From assembly GCF_005780165.1 (NCBI RefSeq), contig NZ_VAUV01000003.1:310001-374000 (forward strand): a stretch of 64,000 nt of DNA. Direction: 5' to 3'. The position numbers and the translations under genes are program-made. Positions 34,546-38,765 of the stretch are shown one piece after another (within the stretch, counting starts at the first letter, position 1; every line of letters begins with the position of its first letter). The notes below the pieces were generated by a model. The model saw only the letters and a list, made by a program, of their open reading frames with translations. It did not search any database and was not told the origin of the DNA. This stretch comes from Phragmitibacter flavus (GTDB lineage Bacteria > Verrucomicrobiota > Verrucomicrobiia > Verrucomicrobiales > Verrucomicrobiaceae).

Positions 34546-35550
34546 TTATTGCGGCGCGTAGATCTGGTCGAAGTAACCGCCATCACCGAAGTGGGTTTTG
34601 TGCGCCTCTGCCCAACCGCCGAATTTTTCGTCGATGGTGAACAATTCCACCTTCACAAACTGCTCGGCATATTTGGCGGCGGCTTTCTCGGAACGTGGGC
34701 GGTAGAAGTGTTTGCCGGCAAGGTCCTGGGCTTCTTCGGTGTAGAGGAAGTTCAGATAGGCTTCGGCGGCTTCACGGGTGCCTTTTTTATCAACGACTTT
34801 GTCAACAACGGCGATGGTGGGTTCAGCGAGGATGCTGAGGGACGGGACAACGGTGGTGAATTTGTCGGCACCGAACTCGCGCTGGACCAGGAAGGCTTCA
34901 TTCTCCCAGGAGATGAAGACGTCACCGATGCCGCGCTGCACGAACGTGGTGGTGGAACCACGGGCTCCGCTGTCGAGCACAGCCACATTTTTGTAGATCG
35001 CTTTGACGAACTCTTTTGCGGTGGCGTCGCTGCCGCCTGGTTGGCGACGGGCGTATTCCCAGGCCGCAAGGTAATTCCACTGGGCACCACCGGACGTTTT
35101 GGGGTTTGGGGTGATCACGGACACGCCTTCTTTGGCGAGGTCATTCCAGTCTTTGATGCCCTTTGGATTGCCCGCGCGGACGATGAAAACGATCGTGCTG
35201 GTGTAGGGAGCCGAGTTTTGGGGAAGACGAGACTGCCAGTCCTCCTTGATCAATCCGGCTTTGGCGACGGCGTTGACATCATTGGCCAGCGCGAGGGTGA
35301 CCACATCGGCCTCCAGGCCGTCAACGACTGAACGGGCTTGTTTGCCGGAACCACCGTGGGATTGGTCAATGCTGATGGTCTTGCCGGATTTTTCTTTCCA
35401 ATGTTTGGCGAAGAGTTCGTTGTATTCCCCGTAGAATTCCCGGGTGGGATCGTAGGAGACATTGAGAAGGCTTTGTGAGAAGGTGGAGCCTGCGATGAGA
35501 CCGCTGACGGCGAGGCCAAGGAGGGTTTTGATTTTGAAGGATGTTTTCAT
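34546..35550 (-). CDS. sbp: Sulfate ABC transporter substrate-binding protein
   Basis: This periplasmic protein captures sulfate for the CysTWA importer. The 334-residue precursor has a signal peptide (about residues 1-25, ending STFSQS) and the family blocks [61 protein letters not shown] and the [12 protein letters not shown] segment. The length is normal. It lies upstream of the M14, cysT, cysW and cysA genes on the same strand, separated from the porin gene by about 150 bases that hold GC-rich palindromic sequence and the likely promoter. Confidence 0.96.
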
Positions 35551-35704
35551 GATGTTGTAATGGTTTGGTTTGTAAGTCAGGTTAGGTGTCGATGTTTGGA
35601 GATGAGATAGAGTTTGGGGGGGTTCTCATCCGGTGGTTTTGGTCGCTTGGCTCCCGTCACCACCGGCTAAGTTCCTCGCCCCTGCGTGGCGGGATGCTAC
35701 GGGG

Positions 35705-36898
35705 TTAGAACGAGAGGCGGACGCCGGTCAGGAAGGTCCAGCCGTCGAAGTCGCCACCATTGCCGCCGCCATCAAGGGTGGCGTATTCGGCTCCAGCGAG
35801 GAGCTTCAGATTTTGGCCGTAGATGAAGTATTGAAGGCCGCCGGAGACGGACTGGTATTGGTCGCCACGTCCGCTGCCGGTGAGGTCGGGGGCGCGTCGC
35901 TCATAACGGCTTTGGACCTGGATGCTGTTGTTGCCGTCGCCGGTGGAGAAGGAGTAGCGACCCACAAGTTGCAGCTTGTCTTTGACGATGTCGAAGGAGG
36001 GCTGGATGAAGAACCCGGAGGCATCTCCCCAACCTGGATCTCCGCCGGTGGCGTAGAAGAATTCGGTTACAATGTGGAAGCGCCCTTCCTTGACCCAGAA
36101 GGTCGCGGTGAAGAGGTCTTCGTAGCGGTCCAGGATGGTGGCCTCAGCGTCGTTGTCGCTGTGCAACCAATCGAACCGAAGGTCCGCCTTGCTGGTGCCG
36201 AGGGCATCCTTGAGGTCAAATCCAAAGCCTGCACCGTAGGCGATGCCGGCGTTGAATTGACCGAACTCAAGGTCAACATCGTTGGAAAAGACACCTGCCT
36301 GATAGGTGAAGATGCCATGTTTGCCTTGGGCGACGACACCGGTGAGACGATCCACGCGAAGCTGGTTGAAGATCTGCGAGCGCTCGAAGGTATCCTGCTG
36401 GCTGGTGGTGGACTGAAGGAAATCGTAGTAAGCGATCTGCGGCTTCTGTTTACCCACGGTGAGGTTGAAGGATTTTGATGGCTCCCACTTGATGTAGGCG
36501 TCGACCAAGCCGCTGTAGAACGGGTCCCAGGTGTCGTTGCTTTGTGCATCAAGGCGGATGGCAAACTGATTGAACAGTTTGGCATCGAACCCGAAACGGG
36601 AGCGACGGTTTTCCCAGTCATCGGAATCGCCCTGATCGGAATCAAGCCAATGGTATTGACCTTGATAACGACCACGGAGTTTCAATTCCTGGATGACAGG
36701 GTTATCCTTGTTTTTATAAAGTGTGGCGAGTCCCCAGATCTGGTCGAAGAGGGACTCTTCTGCCTCGGTGGTGACGGCGATTTCTTTGGATGACTTGCTG
36801 TAGGCTGGCGAGCCGGCCTGGGTGCTTGTCGGGAGGGTGATCGCAGCAACGGCGGCGAGCAGACTGGATTTGATGATGATGATGGATTGGCGTTTCAT
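35705..36898 (-). CDS. OprP-like outer-membrane porin, sulfate-locus copy
   Basis: The 397-residue protein has a signal peptide (about residues 1-28, TLPTSTQAGS) and then alternating beta strands ending in the outer-membrane signature LTGVRLSF with terminal Phe. The sequence resembles phosphate-selective porins OprO/OprP: LYKNKDNPVIQELKLRGRYQGQYH, a WENRRSRFGFDAKLFNQ block and QSRYERRAP. It lies between sbp and yezD-rrf2 on the same strand, so the anion carried may be sulfate and not phosphate. It is closely related to the porin at 38873-40072. I chose the ATG at 36898 at the signal peptide. Confidence 0.88.
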   Translation of the reverse strand: MKRQSIIIIKSSLLAAVAAITLPTSTQAGSPAYSKSSKEIAVTTEAEESLFDQIWGLATLYKNKDNPVIQELKLRGRYQGQYHWLDSDQGDSDDWENRRSRFGFDAKLFNQFAIRLDAQSNDTWDPFYSGLVDAYIKWEPSKSFNLTVGKQKPQIAYYDFLQSTTSQQDTFERSQIFNQLRVDRLTGVVAQGKHGIFTYQAGVFSNDVDLEFGQFNAGIAYGAGFGFDLKDALGTSKADLRFDWLHSDNDAEATILDRYEDLFTATFWVKEGRFHIVTEFFYATGGDPGWGDASGFFIQPSFDIVKDKLQLVGRYSFSTGDGNNSIQVQSRYERRAPDLTGSGRGDQYQSVSGGLQYFIYGQNLKLLAGAEYATLDGGGNGGDFDGWTFLTGVRLSF

Positions 36899-37028
36899 GG
36901 ACGTAGTCGATGAAGCGCTGGCGCGTCCAGGGTGAGGATGACGTGCGCGGTGGTTGTTGTTTAGGTAGATGTGTGTTTGTTTTGAAGTGCCTCCGTTGGT
37001 GTCGGTAGGCAAAGTGTCTATCTGGCGG

Positions 37029-37226
37029 CTAGCTGCGGATCGTGACGCGATTGGGGGCGTTGTCAGGGCCGCTGCTGAGCCGGGTTTTTTCGGTGCTTTC
37101 CACCTGGGTCACGCGACCTTCGTGGACAATGATTTGCACGGAACCGAAGCGCATGGCTTCGACTTTGGCTTTGACGATGTTGAGCCAGGATTCTTGAATG
37201 TTGGACTGATTGGAAAGAGAGGACAT
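37029..37226 (-). CDS. YezD family (DUF2292) small protein
   Basis: This 65-residue protein has the DUF2292 core: W..IVKAKVEAMRFGSVQIIVHEGRVTQVESTEKTRL. Its function is not known; in other bacteria relatives are found near sulfur assimilation genes and Rrf2 regulators. Here it starts 7 bases after the rrf2 stop, so it is cotranscribed. I chose the ATG at 37226; the upstream open frame covers the C-terminal coding part of the regulator. Confidence 0.85.
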   Translation of the reverse strand: MSSLSNQSNIQESWLNIVKAKVEAMRFGSVQIIVHEGRVTQVESTEKTRLSSGPDNAPNRVTIRS

Positions 37227-37233
37227 GGGATGG

Positions 37234-37812
37234 TCAGGCGGATTTTTTGGTGTCGTTAAGGAATGCGAGGAACCCGTCGGCGGGATCGGCGTGGCGGGGT
37301 CGGGAGGCGTAGCCGGTGCTACATCGATCGGAAGTTGCGGAGGTGATGTTTGCCGGAATGACGGCGAGGCCATCACGTTCGAGTTTGCGGAGCGTGACTT
37401 CGACCACGTCGTGAAGGGTGTAGCGGTCGAGGATGTTGGCGATGGCGTTGCGGACGTCGATCATCAGCATGCGCAGGCCGCAATGATCTTCGTCGGGGCA
37501 GGTGCAGGCTTCGTATTCGGTTTCGCTGGCGCAGCCGATGGGAGCGAGTTTGCCGTCGATGAGGCGGACGATCTCACCCATACGAATTTCGTTTTGGGGT
37601 TTGGCGAGACGGGCACCGCCGACCTTGCCGCGTTTGCTTTCGATGTAGCCGGCACCGCGCAGGGTGAAGAGGATTTGCTCGAGGAACTTGAAGGGAAGTT
37701 TTTCGCTGGCAGCGAGTGAAGACACCGAAACGACATCCTTGCCGGTGCGGTGGGCCACGCCGAGTTGGATGAGGGTGCGGAGTGCGTATTCGCCTTTTTT
37801 GGTCAGCTTCAC
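37234..37812 (-). CDS. Rrf2 family transcriptional regulator with cysteine cluster
   Basis: Rrf2 proteins are winged-helix regulators such as IscR, NsrR and CymR. The DNA-binding part is MKLTKKGEYALRTLIQLG, then SLAASEKLPFKFLEQILFTLRGAGYIESKRGKVGG. A cluster C94, C103, C105 and C111 (with H110) occupies the Fe-S ligand region of IscR-like proteins. A 35-residue tail follows, so the protein is 192 residues, longer than the usual 140-160. The start is GTG at 37812, and a palindrome abuts it. As first gene of the minus-strand group with yezD, porin and sulfate transporter, it is probably a sulfur or redox regulator; that link is inferred from position. Confidence 0.9.
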   Translation of the reverse strand: MKLTKKGEYALRTLIQLGVAHRTGKDVVSVSSLAASEKLPFKFLEQILFTLRGAGYIESKRGKVGGARLAKPQNEIRMGEIVRLIDGKLAPIGCASETEYEACTCPDEDHCGLRMLMIDVRNAIANILDRYTLHDVVEVTLRKLERDGLAVIPANITSATSDRCSTGYASRPRHADPADGFLAFLNDTKKSA

Positions 37813-37829: not shown

Positions 37830-37901
37830 TTAATGTATACTGCGCAAGTAAGAATTATAAAAAGTTTGGAATGGGGGTTTGAGATTTGTGGGGTTTCGGT
37901 T

Positions 37902-38133
37902 CACTCGTCCCGTTGGGACGATTTATGATAGCCCAGCAAAGGGTGCCTCTGCTGAATTTCACTTGTCCCGTCGGGGCGACTCATAATAGCCCGGCACAGG
38001 GTGCCTCTGCGGAAGCTCACTCGTCCCGTCGGGACGATTAATAATAGCCCGGCACAGGGGGCCTCTTCGGAAGTTCACTCGTCCCATCGGGACGATTCAT
38101 AGTAGCCCGGCACAGGGTGCCGGGTTTCGCATG
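37902..38133. repeat. REP-like array: four direct 58-bp units with palindromic core
   Basis: Units begin at 37902, 37960, 38018 and 38076, a constant 58-bp period. Each contains a CGTCCCG...CGGGACG palindrome, then ataatagcccggcacagggtgcc. The copies differ at a few positions, including compensatory ones in the stem. The period has no unique spacer, so it is not a CRISPR. It fills the 366-base stretch between the regulator and the transposase remnant. Confidence 0.9.
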
Positions 38134-38178
38134 GGGAAGCATTTGCGTCCTGAGGGGACGCCTCATGCGCATGGCGGT

Positions 38179-38630
38179 TTAATCCCACACAAACCTCTCA
38201 TCATACTCCACGTCGTATTTGCGGAGGAACTCTCGGTATTCCTCCTGGAACCCTTTGACCCGATGATGTTCTTCCTGTTGGTCGATGTAGGCGAGCAACT
38301 CAGGGAGTTGGGACATCCCTAATGAAAAGGCACCGTATCCGGTTTGCCAATGGAATCCAGCGTGGTTTACCCCTTCGCGCTTGATCCAAACGGACGAGGT
38401 GAATTTCACCTTCTTGACGAATCGGCAACGGACAGCTTGCGCGTTAACTGGACAGCGATATGAACATGATCCGCCATGCCGCCAACGCGGTAGACAACAC
38501 AGCCCAAATCCCGGCCGACCTCGGCAAGATAGGCGAATGCGGGTGATCGGATCTTGCCATCAAGCCACGGTTCGCGGTTTTTGGTAGCGAAAACCAGATG
38601 GGGGAGGCGTCCGTTCAGGACGCGATCCAT
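38179..38630 (-). pseudogene. REP-associated tyrosine transposase (RAYT, IS200-like Y1), frameshifted
   Basis: The gene is split between two frames. The 5' part (from the ATG at 38630) reads MDRVLNGRLPHLVFATKNREP and then GGMADHVHIAV, the HUH motif of Y1 transposases. The 3' part reads TSSVWIKREG, then FHWQTGYGAFSLGMSQ and LLAYIDQQEEHH with the probable catalytic tyrosine, ending in ERFVWD. Near 38419-38422 one base is missing: ATTCGTC where ATTTCGTC would give SVADFVKKVKF. Restoring one base gives a 150-codon frame, the normal size. It is flanked by REP-like units, so it is most likely the dead partner of this repeat family. Confidence 0.87.
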
Positions 38631-38639
38631 ATCGCCAGG

Positions 38640-38765
38640 AAACCCGGCACCTTGTGCCGGGCTGGTATGAGTCGTCCCGTTGGGACGGAAATGTCTGCGC
38701 GACATTCGGAGCATCAGCTTGTGCCGGGCTGGTATGAGTCGTCCCGTTAGGACGGAAATACGGTG
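38640..38765. repeat. Two REP-like units upstream of the transposase, in inverted orientation
   Basis: The sequence ttgtgccgggctggtatgag plus gtcgtcccgttgggacgg appears twice, 67 bases apart (around 38644-38692 and 38717-38759). It is the reverse complement of the 58-bp unit on the other side of the transposase. The arrays thus bracket the gene head to head. Confidence 0.85.

Follow-up and report, generated by a model that had tools for sequence, protein, structure and literature searches.

The window analysed here is a 64,000-nucleotide stretch of the Phragmitibacter flavus genome (G000; 5.9 Mb, 44 contigs), corresponding to positions 310001-374000 of contig C3. It carries a 608-bp element in which two inverted half-units, each built of three palindromes, enclose the remnant of a Y1/HUH transposase gene (Table 1). 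Each half-unit comprises, in order, a first palindrome P1 (CGTCCC, 3 nt, GGGACG), a YTCAT tag, a second palindrome P2 (CCCGGCAC, 3 nt, GTGCCGGG), approximately 20 nt that are not conserved, a third palindrome P3 (GCGTCC...GGACGC) and a second YTCAT tag; the tag beside P3' has been lost from the right half-unit. Adjoining the element on the minus strand (window positions 34546-37812) are genes for a solute-binding protein (PF13531), a Porin_O_P protein (PF07396) and an Rrf2-type regulator (PF02082).

An earlier note on this DNA had described four 58-bp units with a palindromic core on one side of the gene and two inverted, related units on the other. A repeat search of the window recovered all of these, comprising four units at 58-bp spacing starting at 37901, 37959, 38017 and 38075, and two inverted units at 38648-38692 and 38715-38759, 67 bp apart; the true unit is, however, larger than described. 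The last unit on the left and the first on the right run on into a second and a third palindrome, and the element is therefore an inverted pair of three-palindrome halves, one part of which (P1 and part of P2) is repeated locally in tandem as the 58-bp unit.

Table 1 Features of the element and its surroundings, in window coordinates
Feature	Position	Strand	Basis
Whole element, two inverted three-palindrome half-units with the broken transposase gene inside, 608 bp	38080..38687	.	Paired R1 matches, contig C3 348080-348169(+) / 348599-348687(-)
Left half-unit	38080..38169	+	Sequence, inverted repeats I1 and I7, R1 98.5 bits
Left half-unit, P1	38080-38094		
Left half-unit, P2	38106-38124		
Left half-unit, P3, followed by a CTCAT tag	38145-38161		
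Right half-unit, inverted	38599..38687	-	Sequence, inverted repeats I1 and I7, R1 88.4 bits
Right half-unit, P3'	38607-38623		
Right half-unit, P2'	38643-38661		
Right half-unit, P1'	38673-38687		
Three tandem outer units of ~58 bp (P1, tag, P2 without full second arm)	37901..38079	+	Direct repeat D1
Second, truncated P1-type unit outside the right half	38715..38759	-	Direct repeat D2
Y1/HUH transposase gene remnant, subclass 1.2 type	38179..38630	-	PF01797 in both frames; alignment with 13 relatives and the intact paralogue
P2-tag-P1 stretch matching RF01687	38080..38124	-	30.2 bits, below the 37-bit gathering score
Mirror match to RF01687	38643-38687	+	29.8 bits, below cut-off
Weaker match to RF01687	38022-38059	-	21.6 bits
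Weaker match to RF01687	37906-37943	-	20.7 bits

Two overlapping minus-strand frames of the gene remnant match the Y1_Tnp profile PF01797 (5.7e-11 for the N-terminal and 7.9e-05 for the C-terminal frame), with the motif DHVH in the N-terminal frame and the motifs YIDQQEEHH and DERFVWD in the C-terminal one, that is, in a different frame. Since both overlapping frames match the profile, the transposase gene has been split by a frameshift, which falls in the region near 38420 where the earlier note had placed a break in a Y1/HUH gene. An alignment with relatives indicates that the first codons of the remnant coincide with the P3' palindrome and that the conserved start of the relatives (M-P/A/S-Q/H-S) is absent. 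The copy is dead, as had been claimed.

The tyrosine motif of the window gene has the form Y---Q--HH, which fits TnpA-Y1 subclass 1.2; this form is found in 103 of 108 relatives and Y---NP in none of them (0/108). The alignment with relatives also reveals a conserved C-terminal stretch ending in DERYVWD, a candidate for the C-terminal domain specific to the subclass. Among solved structures the nearest chains comprise putative transposases together with ISHp608-type TnpA, i.e. proteins of the IS200/IS605 type. As set out in excerpts of Quentin et al. 2018 (PMC6006769), subclass 1.2 shares with the present genes a length of ~150 aa, the motifs DH[VI]H, WQ and Y---Q--HH, and probably a conserved C-terminal stretch. 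An intact subclass 1.2 gene of 150 aa (P0001), which matches PF01797 at 7e-26, is present on contig C10 of the same genome (C10:36378-37013), where it lies between half-units of its own GCCCC type and is adjoined by roughly 10 tandem copies of a 10-bp repeat. Near-identical gene copies in the style of IS200/IS605 (subclass 1.1) were not found in the P. flavus genome, in which the C-terminal fragment matches itself and one relative at 53% identity, nor was a close intact relative of the window gene found among 68 family genomes, the best being 63% identical to the C-terminal fragment. Eight further loci of the genome (L003-L009 and L013), apart from the element, carry Y1 genes with the class 2 motif Y---NP.

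The palindromic core CGTCCCGTYGGGACG produced 37 strand-hits with at most one mismatch in the 5.9-Mb genome compared to two for the same pattern read backwards, a count in which near-palindromic sites may score on both strands, so the unit is not confined to the window. A covariance model (R1) constructed from an alignment (A1) of 21 halves, these being of the same kind as the halves analysed with it, returned at least 61 matches at E<=0.01. Excluding 12 opposite-strand echoes, two units that belong to the array in the window and a single short match (C5:323516), 46 halves were analysed, 30 of which form 15 inverted pairs, while 16 have no recognised partner. P1 faces outward in all 15 pairs. 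Fourteen pairs, situated in unrelated parts of the genome, are gene-free and 193-230 bp long (197-204 bp in 11 of the 14), the fifteenth being the 608-bp window locus, and one 201-bp copy folded as single-stranded DNA forms a single long hairpin (z -11.4). Beyond P1, conservation across the 46 halves drops sharply from approximately 1.8 bits to 0.5 bit or less, and the positions immediately outside (-4 to -1) are pyrimidine-rich in 35, 38, 39 and 31 of the 46 halves, respectively. The family consensus before P1 is ATGAG, and the C10 family has CGTAGG at this place. Halves of other P1/P3 subfamilies are located at C30:250, C12:4275, C32:3848 and 4066, C2:404371 and C7:1231, the six inspected of at least 18 beside the C10 pair, and look as if they were leftovers of earlier invasions.

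There is no second genome in the genus, and relatives were sought more widely. The C-terminal fragment has an encoded relative in 58 of the 68 family genomes, and a scan with the intact paralogue P0001 retained 80 of 153 relatives, largely with Verrucomicrobiota and Planctomycetota labels and including some from Bacteroidota, Acidobacteria and others; many of these records are MAGs whose taxon labels may be wrong, and at least six loci shared out over the two relative sets are on contigs that match in length and are probably the same, so the counts of relatives hold some duplicates. An inverted repeat with a score of at least 12 between the 250-bp gene flanks was detected at 90 of 105 loci, versus 0.57% of shuffled flanks, and was absent at 15 of the 105 (L145 was omitted owing to its short flank). 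The same test was positive for 10 of 11 Bacteroidota-labelled loci. The designation "Verrucomicrobia-type" given in the earlier note is too narrow, as related genes in records labelled Planctomycetota, Bacteroidota and others also lie between inverted repeats. Subclass 1.2 as published (excerpts of PMC6006769) has no REPs and no IS-type ends or other IS features and occurs mostly in Cyanobacteria and Bacteroidetes, whereas the genes considered here have three-palindrome ends and come largely from records labelled Verrucomicrobiota and Planctomycetota.

Four of the 110 gene loci (L078, L088, L127 and L150) could not be oriented. With a P2-like hairpin as the only requirement, 96 halves (90 of them distinct) were obtained from 208 flanks, at 65 of 106 loci, the remaining 112 flanks yielding no P2 under this strict rule. 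A perfect P1 stem of at least 5 was present in 74 of the 90 distinct halves (shuffled mean 2.6, maximum 7) and a perfect P3 stem of at least 5 in 57 (shuffled mean 3.5, maximum 8), with 31 different P1 hairpin sequences represented. By the strict rule, 36 of 106 loci have a half in which P1 and P3 are both perfect and normally spaced. The stems covary, 14 of 18 base pairs having changed on both sides in 38 aligned halves picked for intact stems (alignment A2, comprising 35 of 46 halves with perfect stems and three from P. flavus), in which the 100% pairing comes from this selection. The 7-nt tags following P1 and P3 of one half agree at 0.556 versus 0.404 when shuffled (0/2000; 36 halves, kinship ignored). 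Based on a general model (R2), halves occur in at least 60 of the 68 family genomes and exceed two per gene in at least 46. Half count follows gene count (rho 0.68), and the correlation is weak once two flanking halves per gene are subtracted (rho 0.22, p 0.076; lower-bound counts).

Another enzyme could have moved the dispersed pairs, either as passengers or as components of miniature DDE-type transposons, with the Y1 gene merely among them; near-identical copies in two other genomes bear on this possibility. In G067, 17 of the 20 fetched loci (L246-L262, L264, L265) consist of units measuring 325-430 bp, which have CCAATGCCATCAGGG...CCCTGATGGCATTGG as their outer ends and paired half-units inside. 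Many of these copies are 94-99.7% identical, the near-identical ones being 325-371 bp long, and of the 17 loci with both ends, L254 and L264 show exact 8-bp duplications and three more show duplications that agree at 7/8 positions. Three 299-bp copies in G060 (L217, L226 and L227), 98-99% identical and situated in unrelated places, likewise hold paired half-units between hairpin ends of another, CTATTGAG type. Both sets of recently spread copies favour such passengers, and because they are composites that end in other terminal repeats they offer no testimony for the Y1 enzyme; we therefore rejected them as proof of Y1-driven movement, given the different ends and the 8-bp target duplications in G067. 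In P. flavus, however, the edge of the unit is P1 itself, no outer terminal repeat was seen beyond P1 in the 46 halves, and 12 of the 14 gene-free pairs lack any exact duplication of at least 4 bp. Hairpin ends also accompany subclass 1.2 genes at many loci, and we consider carriage by DDE-type transposons an unlikely explanation of the dispersed pairs. G065 and G067 share, at one orthologous intergenic position, a half that G064 lacks; the flanks do not align cleanly, and a clean empty site was not found.

The REPtron-like arrangement proposed in the earlier note is well supported in form, with inverted palindromic repeats dispersed in the genome, and neither of the results that the note had named as refuting it was obtained. 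As in RAYT/TnpAREP REPtrons and their REPINs, a Y1 gene lies between inverted palindromic repeats, gene-free inverted pairs are dispersed, and a short tag stands by the hairpin. The dispersed pairs agree with REPINs in consisting of two inverted palindromic units (P1 outward in 15/15 pairs), here with three palindromes per unit. The RAYT identity given to the gene does not hold. A classical RAYT REPtron, that is, a class 2 TnpAREP with GTAG-type REPs arisen independently in this lineage, would share this layout and the REPIN-like pairing, but RAYTs are Y---NP enzymes of class 2 (excerpts of PMC6006769) whose REPs have a GT[AG]G tag and one hairpin each, whereas the window gene has YIDQQEEHH, the tag is ATGAG-like and each half contains three palindromes. 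Together with the IS200/IS605-type affinity of the closest solved chains and the separate presence of class 2 genes in the same genome, this makes a RAYT origin very improbable, and membership of the RAYTs was rejected on the Y motif and the tag.

Other described systems correspond in part. IS200/IS605 elements (subclass 1.1) share the Y1 core, the Y---Q motif and hairpins near the ends; their ends are not described as inverted copies of each other, whereas those reported here mirror one another and contain three hairpins apiece. Di Nocera et al. 2013 (PMC3733652) described CGTC REPs, REPtrons and tyrosine transposases flanked by TIRs, and excerpts of that paper indicate that TIRYTs and TIRtrons resemble the present element in having a Y1 gene between terminal inverted repeats, some of them self-complementary, and repeated genome copies. 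The TIRYTs fall in subclass 2.1 (20 of 26) or in subclasses 2.2 and 2.5 (6 of 26), and none in 1.2, according to excerpts of PMC6006769. Membership of the CGTC REPs was rejected as the CGTC of P1 lies paired inside the stem and not unpaired at the hairpin end. None of the three systems described by Di Nocera et al. fits every feature found here.

The P2-tag-P1 part of the half-units also matches the Rfam family RF01687, "Acido-Lenti-1 RNA", which at its founding was listed as a probable RNA that is not cis-regulatory (excerpts of PMC2864571). Matches over the cut-off were found in at least two places in the P. flavus genome (41.0 bits on C10 and 37.2 bits on C5) and, within or close to the regions flanking subclass 1.2 genes, at 13 of 20 loci of nearer relatives. 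None of 20 loci of more distant relatives and none of the eight class 2 gene loci exceeded the cut-off, with weaker matches within the gene flanks at 4 of 13 distant loci. A search of the phylum yielded matches in at least 24 of 145 genomes, at least 14 of them over the cut-off, and none in 14 control genomes among the matches listed. A subclass 1.2 gene lies within 1.5 kb of 5 of 30 fetched RF01687 loci, one being the C10 locus. Twenty-five of the 30 were examined further (L283 and L286-L289 were omitted as partial or weak); a mirror partner with an identity of 65% or more exists for 13 of these, two being the halves of one pair, and 15 have a P3-like stem of at least 5, compared to a shuffled mean of 4.0 and maximum of 8. 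Judged by these sequence matches, RF01687 models the P2-tag-P1 part of such ends. The family is catalogued as an sRNA of unknown function, and excerpts of a 2026 paper (PMC13298647) still consider that it might regulate protease genes. No mention of a mirror copy or of P3 was found in the printed excerpts available, and no link to a transposase was found in those of PMC13298647, PMC10059132 and PMC7682815. Literature searches with the palindrome letters, and with Prosthecobacter, transposase and repeats, gave no match. That the half-units are RNA structures (an RF01687-like sRNA or terminators) whose repetition is secondary is highly doubtful, since the construction of RF01687 as an RNA family and the covariation of 14 of 18 pairs, in an alignment selected for intact stems, are set against matches that mirror one another, on both strands, to either side of transposase genes and against the mirror partners and P3-like stems at the RF01687 loci.

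Based on these findings, we consider it likely that the locus is a decayed autonomous HUH-Y1 single-strand mobile element from the lineage of TnpA-Y1 subclass 1.2, accompanied by orphan REPIN-like copies, and we infer that its movement was effected by the enzyme. The end of such an element would become single-stranded, the transposase would recognise the hairpin together with the neighbouring tag and cut in the pyrimidine-rich edge outside P1, and the single strand would then be moved or copied. By analogy with IS200/IS605 and TnpAREP, as presented in excerpts of PMC6006769 and PMC8266576, the tag would act as a guide sequence, and the short gene-free copies may have been moved in trans, like REPINs. 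As the genome holds no close intact match to the window transposase, these short copies are probably orphans now.

More tentatively, although we lean towards it, we propose that subclass 1.2 comprises the enzymes of a separate, phylum-spanning single-strand element with symmetric three-hairpin ends and REPIN-like derivatives, and that RF01687 represents the outer two hairpins of these DNA ends and not an RNA gene. The new elements are the association between subclass 1.2 enzymes and three-palindrome ends and the reinterpretation of RF01687. If true, this would supply a DNA substrate for a transposase group described as having none, mean that REPtron-like organisation also reaches the IS200 side of the Y1 transposases, and provide a directly testable re-reading of a curated Rfam family.
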